Below are positions 20,363 to 32,904 of a DNA stretch of 64,000 nt, piece after piece. Within the stretch, counting starts at the first letter, position 1. Every line of letters begins with the position of its first letter. Under the pieces are notes generated by a model. The model saw only the letters and a program-made list of their open reading frames with translations, was not told where the DNA came from and did no database searches. A program made the translations under genes and the position numbers. This DNA is from Salinibacterium sp. SWN167. GTDB lineage: Bacteria; Actinomycetota; Actinomycetes; Actinomycetales; Microbacteriaceae. The stretch is taken from positions 310,001 through 374,000 of the forward strand of contig NZ_JADYWU010000002.1 of the NCBI RefSeq assembly GCF_015864665.1, read 5' to 3'.

Positions 20363-21463
20363 TCAGGGAATGAGCAGGGTGCGAAGGGCACCGCGGAATT
20401 CGAGATCATCGAACGCTTCCGCTGCCTCTGCGAGGGGACGTCGCCCAGATACGAGCGGGTCGAGTTTGAGCTGGCCGTCCATGTAGCGGTCGACGAGCGC
20501 AGGGATATCGATAGAAGGGCGAACGCTGCCGTAGTTCGAGCCGATGATGCGCTGGTCGGCTTCGGCAAGAACAAGAGGCTCGAAGGATGCACGAGCACCC
20601 GTCGGGGGGAGGCCAACGATGACCGCGGCTCCGCCCAGGCCCAGCATCGTGATGGCCTGTTCCGTGGTGGAAGTGCGGCCGATGGCGTCGAAGGCGTAGT
20701 CGACGCCATCGGGAATCAGCTCGAAGAGGGCGGCCACAGCATCCACTTGAGAGGCATCGATGGCGTCGGTCGCGCCGAACTGAGTGGCGAGGGCGGTTTT
20801 CTCGGCGCGTACGTCGATCGCAATGATGCGTTCGGCTCCGGCGAGCTTTGCGCCCTGAACGACGTTGAGGCCAACGCCTCCGCAACCGATAACGACCACG
20901 GTCGAACCGGGCTCTACTGCGGCGGTGTTGAGCACGGCCCCCACGCCCGTGGCGACGGCGCAGCCGACGAGCGCAACGACATCGAGCGGGGCATCGTCAC
21001 GAATTTTGACGGCTCCGGATGCTGGAACTACAACTTCTTCAGCAAATGACGAGACACCCAAGTAGTGGTGCATGTTCTCGTCCCCTTCGCGGCTCAAGCG
21101 CGAGGTTCCGTCGAAGAGCACTCCCTTGGGGGCAACGACCGTGGCAACCTTCTGGCAGCGAGCTTCGTGGCCCGAGCGGCAGTAGCGGCACTCGCCGCAC
21201 GGCGGAACCCACGAGAGCACAACATGGTCCCCAACGGAGAGCGAGGTAACGCCTTCGCCGAGTTCAACAACAACACCAGAGCCCTCGTGGCCCATGACGA
21301 GCGGTGCGGGAGCATCCCATTCGCCACGCTTGATGTGGAGGTCGGAGTGACAGACCCCGGCGGCGGCAATCTTGACGCGTACTTCGCCGGCCTTGGGGGC
21401 AGCGAGTTCGACGTCAGTGTATTCGAGCGGCTGGTCGGGGGAGCGGAAGACGATGGCCTTCAT
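20363..21463 (-). CDS. Zinc-dependent alcohol dehydrogenase (MDR superfamily)
   Basis: 366 residues. Catalytic zinc ligands Cys38 (GVCHSD) and His59-Glu60 (MGHEGSG) are present. The structural zinc lobe has four cysteines at 89, 92, 95 and 103 (PCGECRYCRSGHEARC). The Rossmann motif VVIGCGGVGLNVVQGAKLAG ends in an Asp (IAIDV), which favours NAD over NADP. It resembles class III-like and mycothiol/NDMA-type alcohol dehydrogenases of actinobacteria. First gene of a two-gene unit with the APC permease; divergent from PucR, with a 15-bp inverted repeat in the shared promoter region. Confidence 0.93.
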   Translation of the reverse strand: MKAIVFRSPDQPLEYTDVELAAPKAGEVRVKIAAAGVCHSDLHIKRGEWDAPAPLVMGHEGSGVVVELGEGVTSLSVGDHVVLSWVPPCGECRYCRSGHEARCQKVATVVAPKGVLFDGTSRLSREGDENMHHYLGVSSFAEEVVVPASGAVKIRDDAPLDVVALVGCAVATGVGAVLNTAAVEPGSTVVVIGCGGVGLNVVQGAKLAGAERIIAIDVRAEKTALATQFGATDAIDASQVDAVAALFELIPDGVDYAFDAIGRTSTTEQAITMLGLGGAAVIVGLPPTGARASFEPLVLAEADQRIIGSNYGSVRPSIDIPALVDRYMDGQLKLDPLVSGRRPLAEAAEAFDDLEFRGALRTLLIP

Positions 21464-29173: not shown

Positions 29174-29221
29174 CCACTACATCTAGGGTTGGCGAGAGGT
29201 GGCACCCACGATATATAGTGG
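29174..29221. promoter_or_regulatory. Two NrdR-box-like dyads, 32 bp apart
   Basis: CCACGATATATAGTGG (29206-29221) closely fits the NrdR consensus (CACwATATATwGTG type). A weaker copy, CCACTACATCTAGGGT, is at 29174-29189. The 32-bp period equals three helical turns, the arrangement known for paired NrdR boxes. NrdR represses ribonucleotide reductase genes when dATP is sufficient. Confidence 0.65.
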
Positions 29222-29282: not shown

Positions 29283-31721
29283 GTGGCAATCACAGTCGTC
29301 AAGCGCAACGGTACGCGAGAGCCGTATGACGCCAACAAGATCAACCTCGCAATCGAAGATGCCGCCACTGGCCTCGACGACAACATCACGTGGGTCACTC
29401 AGATCGCGTCCGAGCTTGAGTTGACGCTGTTTGACGGCATCACAACGCAGCAGCTCGACGAAGCGGTCATTCAGGTCGCTCTCCAAAACGTAAAAGACGA
29501 CCCGGCCTTCGACACTGTCGCCGCCCGTCTTCTTCTCAAGACCATCTACAAGCGCGTTCTCGGTGACTACTCCGACGCTGCTGACCTCAAGCGCCTGCAC
29601 AAAGAGCACTTCGGCCCCAACGTCATCCGTGGCGTAGAAGAAGGCCTGCTCGACCCGCGCCTCACGAGCATGTTCGACTTGGATGCTCTCGCCGAGCACC
29701 TTGAGCCCGCTCACGATGAGCTGCTCAAGTACATCGGTGTTGTTACGCTCAACAACCGTTACGGCATCAAGGGTCGCAACGGCGACGCCCTCGAGGTGCC
29801 GCAGTACTTCTGGATGCGCATCGCGATGGGCCTCTCGCTCAACGAAGCGAACCCCAACGAGGCTGCCCTCAAGTTCTACGAAAAAATGTCCAGCCTCGAG
29901 TACTTGGCTGCTGGCTCCACTCTCGTGAACGCGGGAACGATCTACCCGCAGCTCGCCAACTGTTTCGTCATGGAAATGCAAGACGACATGGAGCACATCG
30001 CCAAAACGACGCGCGATGTCATGTGGCTCACCAAGGGCACCGGCGGAATTGGCCTCTCGGTCACCAAGCTTCGCGCCCAGGGCTCGCCCATCCGCTCGAA
30101 CAACACGACCTCTACCGGTCCTATCCCGTTCATGCACACGATCGACTCGATCTTGCGTGCGGTCAGCCGCGGTGGCAAGAAGTTCGGCGCCCTCTGCTTC
30201 TACATGGAGAACTGGCACATGGACTTCCCGGAGTTCCTCGAACTCCGCAGCAACTCCGGTGACCCCTACCGCCGCACCCGCACCGCCAACACGGCCGTCT
30301 GGATTAGCGACGAGTTTATGAAGCGCGTTCAAAACGACGACTCGTGGTACCTCTTCGACCCGCTCGAAGTTGCGGACCTCAACGAGCTCTACGGCAAAGC
30401 ATTCTCCGAGCGCTACAACGAATATGTTGCGATGGCTGAGGCCGGCGAAATGCACATGTTTAAGAAGATCGGTGCTCGTGAGCAGTTCAAGTCGATCCTC
30501 ATCTCCTTGCAGACCTCCAGCCACCCGTGGCTGACCTGGAAAGACACGATCAACAACCGTGCGCTCAACAACAACACGGGCACGATCCACCTCTCCAACC
30601 TGTGCACCGAAATCACCCTCCCGCAGGATGAAGACAACGTCTCCGTCTGCAACCTTGCGTCGATCAACCTGTCGCGTCACCTTCTCCCCGAAGGCGGAGT
30701 CGACTTTGTGAAGATCGCTGAGAGCGCCCGACTGGCCGTACGCCAGCTCGACAACCTCATCGACATCACACGCTCCAGCGTGAAAGAAGCAGACTTCTCC
30801 AACGAGCAGAACCGCGCAGTCGGTCTCGGCGTAATGGGCTTCACCGACATCATCGAGAAGCTCGGCTACAGCTACGAGAGCGAAGAGGCCTACGACCTCA
30901 TCGATGAAATCATGGAGCACGTCTCGTACGCTGCGATCGATGCCAGCACCGAGCTCGCGAAAGAGCGCGGCGCGTACACGAACTTCGAAGGCAGCGGATG
31001 GTCGAAGGGCCTCGTGCCACTCGACTCCATCGCGCTCACCGAGGAAGACCGTGGCATCGAGATCAAGGTCAACCGCAAGACTCGCCTCGACTGGGATGCC
31101 ATGCGCGAGAAGGTCAAGGGCGGAATGCGTAACGCAACGCTCATGGCGATCGCCCCCACCGCATCCATTGGTCTCGTTGCGGGCACCACGCCCGGCCTCG
31201 ACCCGCAGTTCTCGCAAATCTTCAGCCGCTCGACCTCGAACGGCAAGTTCCTCGAAGTGAACCGCAACCTCGTTGCGACTCTTCAAGAGCACGGACTGTG
31301 GGAAAAGAACCGCGAAGCCATCCTTCGTAGCCAGGGCGACATCCAGAACGTTGCCGGCATCCCCGACGACATCAAGGCTGTTTTCAAGACGAGCTTCCAG
31401 CTCTCGCCGTATGCCTTCCTTGAGGTTGCCGCTCGTGCCCAGAAGTGGATCGACCAGTCCATCAGCCGCAACATGTATCTCGAGACGCGTGACCTCGGCG
31501 ACATGATGGACATCTACTTTGACGCGTGGTCGCGCGGCGTCAAGACCACCTACTACCTGCACATGAAGCCCCGCCACCAGGCAGAACAGTCCACGGTGAA
31601 GGTCAACAAGTCAGAAGAAATTTCGTCGAGCAAGGCTGCAACAGCCACGGCATCCACATCAACCGCGGGCGCAGCTCCCGCACGCCGAGGTTTCGGCGGA
31701 TTCGCAAAGAAGGCAGAGTAA
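29283..31721 (+). CDS. nrdA: Ribonucleoside-diphosphate reductase large subunit, lacking C-terminal shuttle cysteines
   Basis: 812 residues. An N-terminal ATP-cone (about 3-95, VVKRNGTREPYDANKINLAI) gives allosteric control. Active-site residues are all present: Cys227 (LANCFVM), radical Cys441 with Asn439 and Glu443 (SNLCTE), Cys456 (VSVCNLAS) and the Tyr-Tyr pair in KTTYYLHMK. After that follows a roughly 50-residue Ala/Ser/Thr-rich tail ending RRGFGGFAKKAE. No cysteine occurs after residue 456, so the pair that normally passes electrons from thioredoxin or glutaredoxin to the active site is missing. A separate 26-codon frame two bases downstream supplies a CxxC tail. Start GTG 29283, with GGGAG six bases upstream. 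Confidence 0.95.
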   Translation: MAITVVKRNGTREPYDANKINLAIEDAATGLDDNITWVTQIASELELTLFDGITTQQLDEAVIQVALQNVKDDPAFDTVAARLLLKTIYKRVLGDYSDAADLKRLHKEHFGPNVIRGVEEGLLDPRLTSMFDLDALAEHLEPAHDELLKYIGVVTLNNRYGIKGRNGDALEVPQYFWMRIAMGLSLNEANPNEAALKFYEKMSSLEYLAAGSTLVNAGTIYPQLANCFVMEMQDDMEHIAKTTRDVMWLTKGTGGIGLSVTKLRAQGSPIRSNNTTSTGPIPFMHTIDSILRAVSRGGKKFGALCFYMENWHMDFPEFLELRSNSGDPYRRTRTANTAVWISDEFMKRVQNDDSWYLFDPLEVADLNELYGKAFSERYNEYVAMAEAGEMHMFKKIGAREQFKSILISLQTSSHPWLTWKDTINNRALNNNTGTIHLSNLCTEITLPQDEDNVSVCNLASINLSRHLLPEGGVDFVKIAESARLAVRQLDNLIDITRSSVKEADFSNEQNRAVGLGVMGFTDIIEKLGYSYESEEAYDLIDEIMEHVSYAAIDASTELAKERGAYTNFEGSGWSKGLVPLDSIALTEEDRGIEIKVNRKTRLDWDAMREKVKGGMRNATLMAIAPTASIGLVAGTTPGLDPQFSQIFSRSTSNGKFLEVNRNLVATLQEHGLWEKNREAILRSQGDIQNVAGIPDDIKAVFKTSFQLSPYAFLEVAARAQKWIDQSISRNMYLETRDLGDMMDIYFDAWSRGVKTTYYLHMKPRHQAEQSTVKVNKSEEISSSKAATATASTSTAGAAPARRGFGGFAKKAE

Positions 31722-31723
31722 TT

Positions 31724-31804
31724 ATGAACCGCGAAAACACCGTTGAGGACTACTTCGTACCGGTCGACCCCATGGACGACCTCCAGTGCGACAGCTGCCA
31801 GTAA
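31724..31804 (+). CDS. 26-residue CxxC peptide, detached C-terminal tail of NrdA
   Basis: The ATG lies two bases after the nrdA stop, in the -1 frame; AAGAAGG (31707-31713) ten bases upstream can act as ribosome site. The peptide ends DDLQCDSCQ: an acidic tail with Cys22 and Cys25, like the C-terminal swinging arm of class I NrdA/NrdE. The part before it (ENTVEDYFVPVDPMDD) looks like an ordinary linker. Either the tail is made as a separate peptide by translational coupling, or it is fused by a -1 frameshift, or a one-base indel (real or sequencing) has split the gene. No canonical slippery heptamer is visible in the overlap. The reading frame is certain; its expression is inferred. Confidence 0.7.
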   Translation: MNRENTVEDYFVPVDPMDDLQCDSCQ

Positions 31805-31905: not shown

Positions 31906-32904
31906 ATGGGAATTCTAGGAACGGGCCTCCAAGACGGCCTCCTGCTGAAGCCGATCAAGTACCAGTGGGCAATGGACCTGTACGACCAGGCCGTCGCCAA
32001 CACGTGGTTCCCTAACGAGATCCAGCTGGGCGAAGACATCGCCGACTTCAAGAAGATGACTGATGAAGAGCGTCACGCAGTGACGTTCCTCATGAGCTAC
32101 TTCAACCCGAATGAGCTGCTCGTCAATAAGGCACTCGCTTTCGGCGTGTACCCCTACGTTTCTGCCGCAGAATGCTCGCTGTACCTCGCGAAGCAGATGT
32201 GGGAAGAAGCTAACCACTGCATGAGCTTCGAGTACGTTCTCGAAACCTTCCCCATCGACCGTGAAGCGGCCTACAACTCTCACGTTGATGTGCCGTCGAT
32301 GGCGCGCAAGGAAGAGTTTGAGATGAAGTACATCCGTCGCATGACGGAGCAAACTCTCGACATCAACACCATCGAGGGCAAGCAGGACTTCATCCGTAAC
32401 CTCGTTGCCTACAACGTGGTACTCGAAGGCATCTGGTTCTACTCGGGCTTCATGGTTGCTTTGTCGTTCCGCCAGCGCAACCTGCTGCGCAACTTCGGTT
32501 CGCTCATGGACTGGGTTGTTCGCGACGAGAGCCTGCACCTCAAGTTTGGTATCAACCTGATTCTCACGGTGCTCGAAGAGAACCCCGAGATTCAGACCGA
32601 AGAGTTCGCTGACGAAATTCGCCAGATGATCTTGGACGCTGTGGAGATGGAAGAGGCCTACAACCACGACCTGCTCCCCGGCGGCATCCTCGGACTCAAC
32701 GCCAACTACATCAACCAGTACGTCAAGTACCTGGCTGACCGTCGTTTGGAAGAGCTCGGATTCGAGGCGCACTACAAGGTCTCGAACCCGGCCAAGTGGA
32801 TGGCGACAGCCAACGACACTCTTGAGCTCGTGAACTTCTTTGAGTCGACCAACACCTCGTACGAGGCCAACGCGTCGGCAACCACCAAAGCTAAAGTCGA
32901 GTGA
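31906..32904 (+). CDS. nrdB: Ribonucleoside-diphosphate reductase small subunit with Phe at the radical-Tyr position
   Basis: 332 residues. Metal ligands are Glu70 (NPNELL), Glu101 and His104 (EEANH), Glu174 (VLEGIWF), Glu208 and His211 (RDESLHL). Spacing is identical to Chlamydia trachomatis R2 (Glu89, 120, 193, 227). The position four after His104, normally the radical tyrosine (Tyr122 in E. coli), is Phe108, and the first ligand is Glu rather than Asp, as in class Ic enzymes that use a Mn/Fe cofactor. Trp34 and a C-terminal Tyr (NTSYEAN) for radical transfer are kept. The class Ic assignment is inferred from these residues. Its stop overlaps the acetyltransferase start by four bases. Confidence 0.95.
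   Translation: MGILGTGLQDGLLLKPIKYQWAMDLYDQAVANTWFPNEIQLGEDIADFKKMTDEERHAVTFLMSYFNPNELLVNKALAFGVYPYVSAAECSLYLAKQMWEEANHCMSFEYVLETFPIDREAAYNSHVDVPSMARKEEFEMKYIRRMTEQTLDINTIEGKQDFIRNLVAYNVVLEGIWFYSGFMVALSFRQRNLLRNFGSLMDWVVRDESLHLKFGINLILTVLEENPEIQTEEFADEIRQMILDAVEMEEAYNHDLLPGGILGLNANYINQYVKYLADRRLEELGFEAHYKVSNPAKWMATANDTLELVNFFESTNTSYEANASATTKAKVE

Follow-up and report, generated by a model that had tools for sequence, protein, structure and literature searches.

The probable C-terminal redox arm of a class I ribonucleotide reductase as a detached peptide gene in Microbacteriaceae, with further copies at unlinked loci and on phages and plasmids

The only ribonucleotide reductase (RNR) that we found in the genome of Salinibacterium sp. 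SWN167 belongs to class I, and its C-terminal redox arm is very probably now a gene of its own and acts in trans. In class I RNR, a C-terminal cysteine pair of the large subunit NrdA re-reduces the active-site disulfide, and this swinging arm is normally part of the chain. The DNA analyzed here (hereafter the window) is a stretch of 64,000 nucleotides, in which nrdA, the separate arm gene and nrdB follow one another on the forward strand. We compared this junction across the family Microbacteriaceae and its order, and the arm peptide was searched for also in the genomes of relatives outside the nrdA region, in viral contigs, and in phage and plasmid records.

The nrdA gene occupies positions 29283..31721 (forward strand), starts with GTG and encodes 812 amino acids. 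In a profile search, NrdA matched NF005101 with 1608.8 bits over residues 1-792 (curated cut-off, 988), and three Pfam domains, ATP-cone, Ribonuc_red_lgN, and Ribonuc_red_lgC, were found in it. The small-subunit gene nrdB (31906..32904, forward strand; 332 amino acids; NF007186, 408.8 bits; PF00268, 254.3 bits) lies downstream. By its domains, its profile score, its active-site cysteines and the presence of nrdB, the protein is a class I large subunit; the redox cysteine pair that this class has at the C-terminus is absent from its own chain. The full cysteine set is 227, 305, 441, and 456, among which Cys227, 441, and 456 are presumably, by homology, the active-site cysteines. This listing bears out a preliminary description of the window, according to which the 812-residue NrdA has no cysteine after Cys456. 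The last cysteine is likewise at 456 or 457 in 77 of 78 named NrdAs, and the remaining one has a single cysteine at 718. PF02867 found a single RNR large chain across the whole genome, so the cell seems to have no other RNR of that family than the window NrdA. Near its C-terminus there is an RRGFGG motif (31683..31700, forward strand), which is also seen at the junctions of relatives; the motif is kept there, and the Ala/Ser/Thr linker preceding it varies. Motifs of the form [RK]GFG, sometimes several, occur in the variable NrdA linker of both split and fused relatives.

The nrdA stop codon TAA (31719-31721) is followed by TT and then, at 31724, by an ATG. From this ATG a frame of 26 codons runs in the -1 phase relative to nrdA; it ends in DDLQCDSCQ, with a stop at 31802-31804. 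The preliminary description had given the distance of two bases, the phase, the length and the ending correctly. This gene for the detached arm peptide (31724..31804, forward strand; 26 amino acids, MNRENTVEDYFVPVDPMDDLQCDSCQ) is conserved in relatives, and the CxxC (CDSC) read from its sequence is located at 31787..31798 of the same strand. The frame is more than a chance ORF, because a peptide with the same ending stands behind nrdA in 156 of 161 readable family loci, because it is under purifying selection, and because the motif occurs at an unlinked site in the same genome. For the last 17 codons of the arm, uncorrected pN/pS was 0.060/0.519 among 24 congeneric loci and 0.128/0.533 among 156 family loci. 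These values speak for a coding sequence rather than an RNA element or a relic, and 0.06/0.52 indicates, at the level of sequence comparison, a selected peptide. Both cysteines and the final Gln are invariant across the 159 tails compared; these residues are imposed because the adjacent tails were selected by a CxxCQ-stop rule, whereas the upstream part, Y-x-V-P-x-D-P-M-D, was not imposed.

To define the distribution of the split, 60 relatives were searched first and then a draw of 398 family genomes, 170 of which were NrdA-positive at E <= 1e-150. The junction set consisted of 165 genomes (149 of the 170, and 16 congeners from the first search). Four junctions (L025, L148, L155, and L160) run off the contig before or inside the arm, and 161 readable loci were thus obtained. 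The CxxC arm is fused to NrdA in none of these 161 loci. A separate arm ORF past the nrdA stop is present in 155 (in frame -1, frame 0 behind the stop, and frame +1 in 134, 13, and 8 loci, respectively), and five (L065, L080, L110, L161, and L166) have no arm between nrdA and nrdB. In L027 (G035), the NrdA frame continues past the position of the relatives' stop, with the arm ORF intact in another frame; the missing stop is probably an assembly indel. Of the 155 loci, 118 have the start codon nearest to the nrdA stop at -1 or +2 (overlapping the stop) and another 21 have it at +5 or +6, and such stop/start spacing is the geometry of coupled re-initiation. The comparison of nrdA 3' ends in Microbacteriaceae, which had been proposed as a check, thus found the split conserved. 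Among 80 named loci, which overlap with the genomes above, 76 are split and four lack the arm; L250, which belongs to these four, lies at the end of a contig. The nearest named relative is Salinibacterium sp. NG253 (100%), and the named relatives include Leifsonia, Glaciihabitans, Microcella, Naasia, Amnibacterium, and Clavibacter. Judged from these loci, the detached arm is a family-wide trait of Microbacteriaceae. This, like the second and the mobile copies described below, was beyond the view of the preliminary description.

For a comparison outside the family, 347 genomes were drawn from the order, and 59 of them, including the window genome, matched at E <= 1e-100. The 29 best matches from other families were read, leaving out the remaining 29 (mostly 38-41% identical), and the arm is fused in frame in all 29 loci read, with endings such as CPVDPMEALQCESCQ. 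Since the fused outgroup tails share the ending, the detached peptide corresponds to the RNR tail. The fused tail of one outgroup (L436) has RRGFGGL shortly before the arm, a closeness that suggests the site where the split arose. Many of the fused outgroup NrdAs (L431-L457, L028) have very long low-complexity linkers, which reach about 220 residues beyond VNK, together with a third cysteine directly before PVDP.

The exact arm motif was found in 177 of the 398 family genomes, namely in all 170 genomes with NrdA versus only 7 of 228 genomes without it. The seven NrdA-negative genomes are assemblies of 120-320 contigs each and belong to genera with other NrdA-positive members; NrdA fragments were found in three of them and none in four. 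At least two motif copies are present in 153 of the 177 genomes (exactly two in 127) and one in 24, and a reversed-pattern control in the family genomes gave none among the matches listed. Because the adjacent copies are linked to nrdA, the absence of extra copies from the 221 other genomes is the more telling point.

A degenerate form of the motif has two sites in the window genome, and the second (G000:C2:156085-156126) lies about 154 kb before the window start in contig coordinates. This second copy (L172) is a 27-residue ORF, MDNENDTVGGYAIPVDPMDLLQCDSCQ, with AAGGAGG ahead of its ATG. Each of the five genomes without an adjacent arm also has one exact motif match elsewhere. By peptide shape and context, 38 copies were grouped, not blind, as 22 unlinked and 16 other copies; with this grouping, a FAS1-dehydratase-like neighbor is common to 20 of the 22 unlinked loci and to none of the 16 others. 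In L172 the neighbor matches PF13452, the FAS1-like dehydratase region. The motif itself served to find the unlinked and the viral sets, so part of the residue conservation within them is imposed by the search.

At two loci the motif stands at the end of a longer ORF. In L211 (G174:C5, a 45-kb contig), this ORF has 115 codons from stop to stop and resembles a mobile-element protein, so the arm may be fused there to another protein. In L175 (G352:C5:94777-94818), a 101-residue protein with its end at 1545 terminates in APVDPEDGLDCDSCQ, which is the motif with two mismatches. This protein looks as if the arm had been fused to a redoxin (an NrdH-tail fusion), on a weak match to Pfam Glutaredoxin of 16.6 bits, below the cut-off of 22.9. 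An opposite-strand ORF at this locus resembles, by eye, a plasmid relaxase.

Two NrdR-type boxes are located upstream of nrdA on the forward strand: box 1, CCACTACATCTAGGGT, at 29174..29189 (12 of 16 positions) and box 2, CCACGATATATAGTGG, at 29206..29221 (13 of 16), both scored against an NrdR-box consensus. They are 32 bp apart from start to start, with a 16-bp spacer. According to two reports, four NrdR proteins bind box pairs with a spacer of 14-17 bp (PMC12051234), and an NrdR-DNA structure spans three helical turns (PMC9110341). The spacing observed here agrees with both values and thus fits NrdR binding, and nrdR itself is present in the genome (TIGR00244, 152 bits, above cut-off). The two boxes about three helical turns apart and the nrdR gene are what an NrdR regulon has. 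When pairs 30-34 bp apart were scored (many boxes are weak, with 11-13 of 16), a pair was found ahead of nrdA in 124 of 125 loci, among which genomes are repeated and two outgroups are included, L028 having a pair and L029 being the sole miss. Ahead of the unlinked copies, pairs were found in 18 of 22, versus a shuffle mean of 0.125 of 22; four of the 22 have no scored pair, and one or more sites scoring 11 of 16 or better were found for all 22. The corresponding numbers for the other copies and the viral copies are 0 of 16 and 1 of 79, respectively. The second arm copy of the window genome has boxes similar to the nrdA pair and is, by this prediction, probably under NrdR control together with nrdAB.

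In viral contigs the motif was found in at least 120 loci, and the reversed pattern gave none across these contigs. Among the 120 viral loci listed, 119 end exactly at CQ-stop and one (L316) adds two residues. An NrdA match was found in one of the 120 (L380), the DNA examined being often part of a contig. A narrower viral pattern found a single locus. A search of 50,697 phage records found the peptide, unannotated, in three phages of Microbacteriaceae, namely Pontimonas phage phiPsal1 and Clavibacter phages CMP1 and CN1A, and a similar peptide in Pseudanabaena phage Pan2 is annotated as a hypothetical protein. The Pan2 peptide (ON968453.1, about 21246-21323; L430, 4001-4078) ends in ACPNDPADLVSCESCQ; this phage is recorded from a cyanobacterium, and it may be worth verifying either its recorded host or how far the arm extends. 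Five Staphylococcus phage records and one ssRNA phage, all with E of 8 in the short-peptide search of the phage collection, were taken as chance. Gene annotation is lacking for most copies in annotated phage records, so genes of this kind can easily be overlooked. In a collection of 72,556 plasmid records, the peptide was found in 19 (15, 3, and 1 from Clavibacter, Leifsonia, and Gryllotalpicola, respectively).

The surroundings of the phage copies were also inspected. An upstream ORF is present at 72 viral loci; in ten of these, selected for inspection, it matches phage families, namely three holins, two endolysin-like proteins, a terminase, a portal protein, an exonuclease, an HNH endonuclease, and a weak tail-fiber match. 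Phage and prophage copies (L217, L218, L428, and L427) often stand behind holin or lysis genes, a position that suggests late expression of these copies, as far as gene order can tell.

The preliminary description had left three explanations of the junction, namely an arm supplied in trans, an arm made by frameshifting, and a gene split by a one-base indel. A sequencing error or a recent one-base mutation in a normal gene has a precedent in our own data, since L027 lacks the nrdA stop found in relatives and such errors do occur in the data set. As a general cause it is excluded by the separate ORF past the nrdA stop in 155 of 161 readable family loci, where the peptide is under purifying selection, and we give this explanation practically no weight. 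Programmed frameshifting would yield an NrdA with an ordinary fused arm, and the facts that -1 is the commonest phase (134 of 155 loci) and that the arm frame in the window stays open over the 66 codons before the ATG are in its favor. It should show one conserved frame relation, but 13 loci have the arm in frame 0 behind the stop and 8 have it in frame +1, and arm starts cluster at the nrdA stop; in L010, the -1 frame opens merely five codons ahead of the ATG. Because the arm stands in all three frames and is unlinked in five genomes, a conserved frameshift is excluded, and the unlinked copies are beyond the reach of any frameshifting. Frameshifting as the explanation is extremely improbable, and it may operate in a minority of species. 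With the indel and the conserved frameshift both excluded, an arm acting in trans is the explanation that stands, and it is supported by the second, unlinked copy with NrdR-type boxes and by the plasmid and phage copies.

Two other alternatives accept a separate peptide and concern what it does. The peptide may act in trans chiefly in another way, by carrying metal to NrdB, by regulating how NrdA assembles or, on phages, by inhibiting the host RNR. Metal binding is possible for CxxC peptides and phages frequently interfere with host enzymes; against this, the same ending is found in the fused tail of the outgroup, at the known position of the redox arm, NrdA has no other C-terminal cysteine pair, and the motif is present in every NrdA-positive genome of the draw. 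From the sequence comparisons, we judge such a role unlikely. It is also conceivable that the unlinked copy alone matters and the nrdA-adjacent copy is a relic, as the lack of an adjacent copy in five genomes might indicate. The adjacent copy is under purifying selection and is retained in 156 of 161 readable loci, and 24 genomes have a single motif copy, which in some of them may be the adjacent one; we thus consider a relic very unlikely.

For the arm acting in trans on NrdA, the following course of events can be proposed. The 26-residue arm would probably be translated by ribosomes that have just finished NrdA, since in most relatives its start codon overlaps the nrdA stop or lies very close to it. 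The peptide would dock on NrdA via its conserved Y-x-V-P-x-D-P-M-D part, for which RRGFGG near the NrdA end may be the docking site, unless that motif is the ancestral linker, and the CxxC of the arm would then reduce the active-site disulfide, Cys227-Cys456 by homology. The oxidized arm would leave NrdA and be re-reduced by thioredoxin or glutaredoxin; a glutaredoxin-like protein with CRDC, encoded in the genome, is one possible candidate for this reductant. The unlinked copy would supply further arm, and some species may depend on it alone. Phages and plasmids would bring the arm without the enzyme, most simply raising the dNTP supply of the host. An AlphaFold2 model of NrdA and the arm read through the TAA, with an alignment headed by L301 (42 rows), had a mean pLDDT of 57.2 and a pTM of 0.63, with a pLDDT of about 23-37 over the tail and a poorly modeled barrel.

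Several known systems resemble this arrangement in part. The NrdA of Aeromonas phage Aeh1 is also made as two chains, but it is split inside the enzyme itself by a homing-endonuclease gene. The tail of yeast Rnr1 serves the neighboring subunit in trans as the arm here would do, but it remains covalently attached. Phages are known to carry RNR genes and thus bring genes able to raise the dNTP supply; these bring an enzyme, whereas here the arm comes alone, with no NrdA match in the DNA examined at 119 of the 120 viral loci listed. Ordinary NrdA (NF005101, PRK06539) is the same enzyme with the same tail ending, CPVDPMEALQCESCQ, and the difference is that the tail is fused there and is an ORF of its own in Microbacteriaceae. 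The closest likeness is to the split class II RNR NrdJa/NrdJb of Pseudomonas aeruginosa and relatives, in which the re-reducing cysteine pair is also on a separate chain encoded beside the catalytic chain; NrdJb was shown there to carry out thiol-disulfide exchange and to be required in vivo, and by the same account no split RNR other than NrdJ had been found in a non-viral organism (PMC4520616). An affinity of 260 nM has been reported for NrdJa/NrdJb. As described, NrdJa/NrdJb differs from the present enzyme in being class II, in the size of the redox chain (229 residues in NrdJb versus 26 in the arm) and in forming one operon, whereas the Microbacteriaceae enzyme is class I with nrdB downstream and its arm is also unlinked and on phages and plasmids. 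The present system thus shares with this type the separate redox chain and does not share a class II chain without nrdB.

The preliminary description had called a detachable arm a new design for this enzyme. Because NrdJa/NrdJb works by the same principle, a detached class I arm is not categorically new; the class, the arm size, the second gene at an unlinked site and the copies on phages and plasmids are without precedent in the literature examined. This literature was open access, in which we found no description of a detached class I arm, and an earlier description is possible in subscription papers and preprints, which were outside this scope.

These findings make it somewhat probable, in our opinion, that a diffusible peptide of about 26 residues is an exchangeable redox cofactor of RNR, with one copy made together with the enzyme and one tuned by NrdR, and that phages and plasmids, with no enzyme of their own, inject more of it and thereby drive the host enzyme. 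A separate arm gene makes it possible to treat enzyme and arm as the two components of a reaction, to study docking, affinity and reduction in this form, and to vary the dose of the arm independently. For phages, a peptide of about 26 residues instead of an enzyme would be a new route to more dNTP. For Microbacteriaceae, the tethering of the arm would be dispensable in an enzyme that is probably its cell's only RNR.
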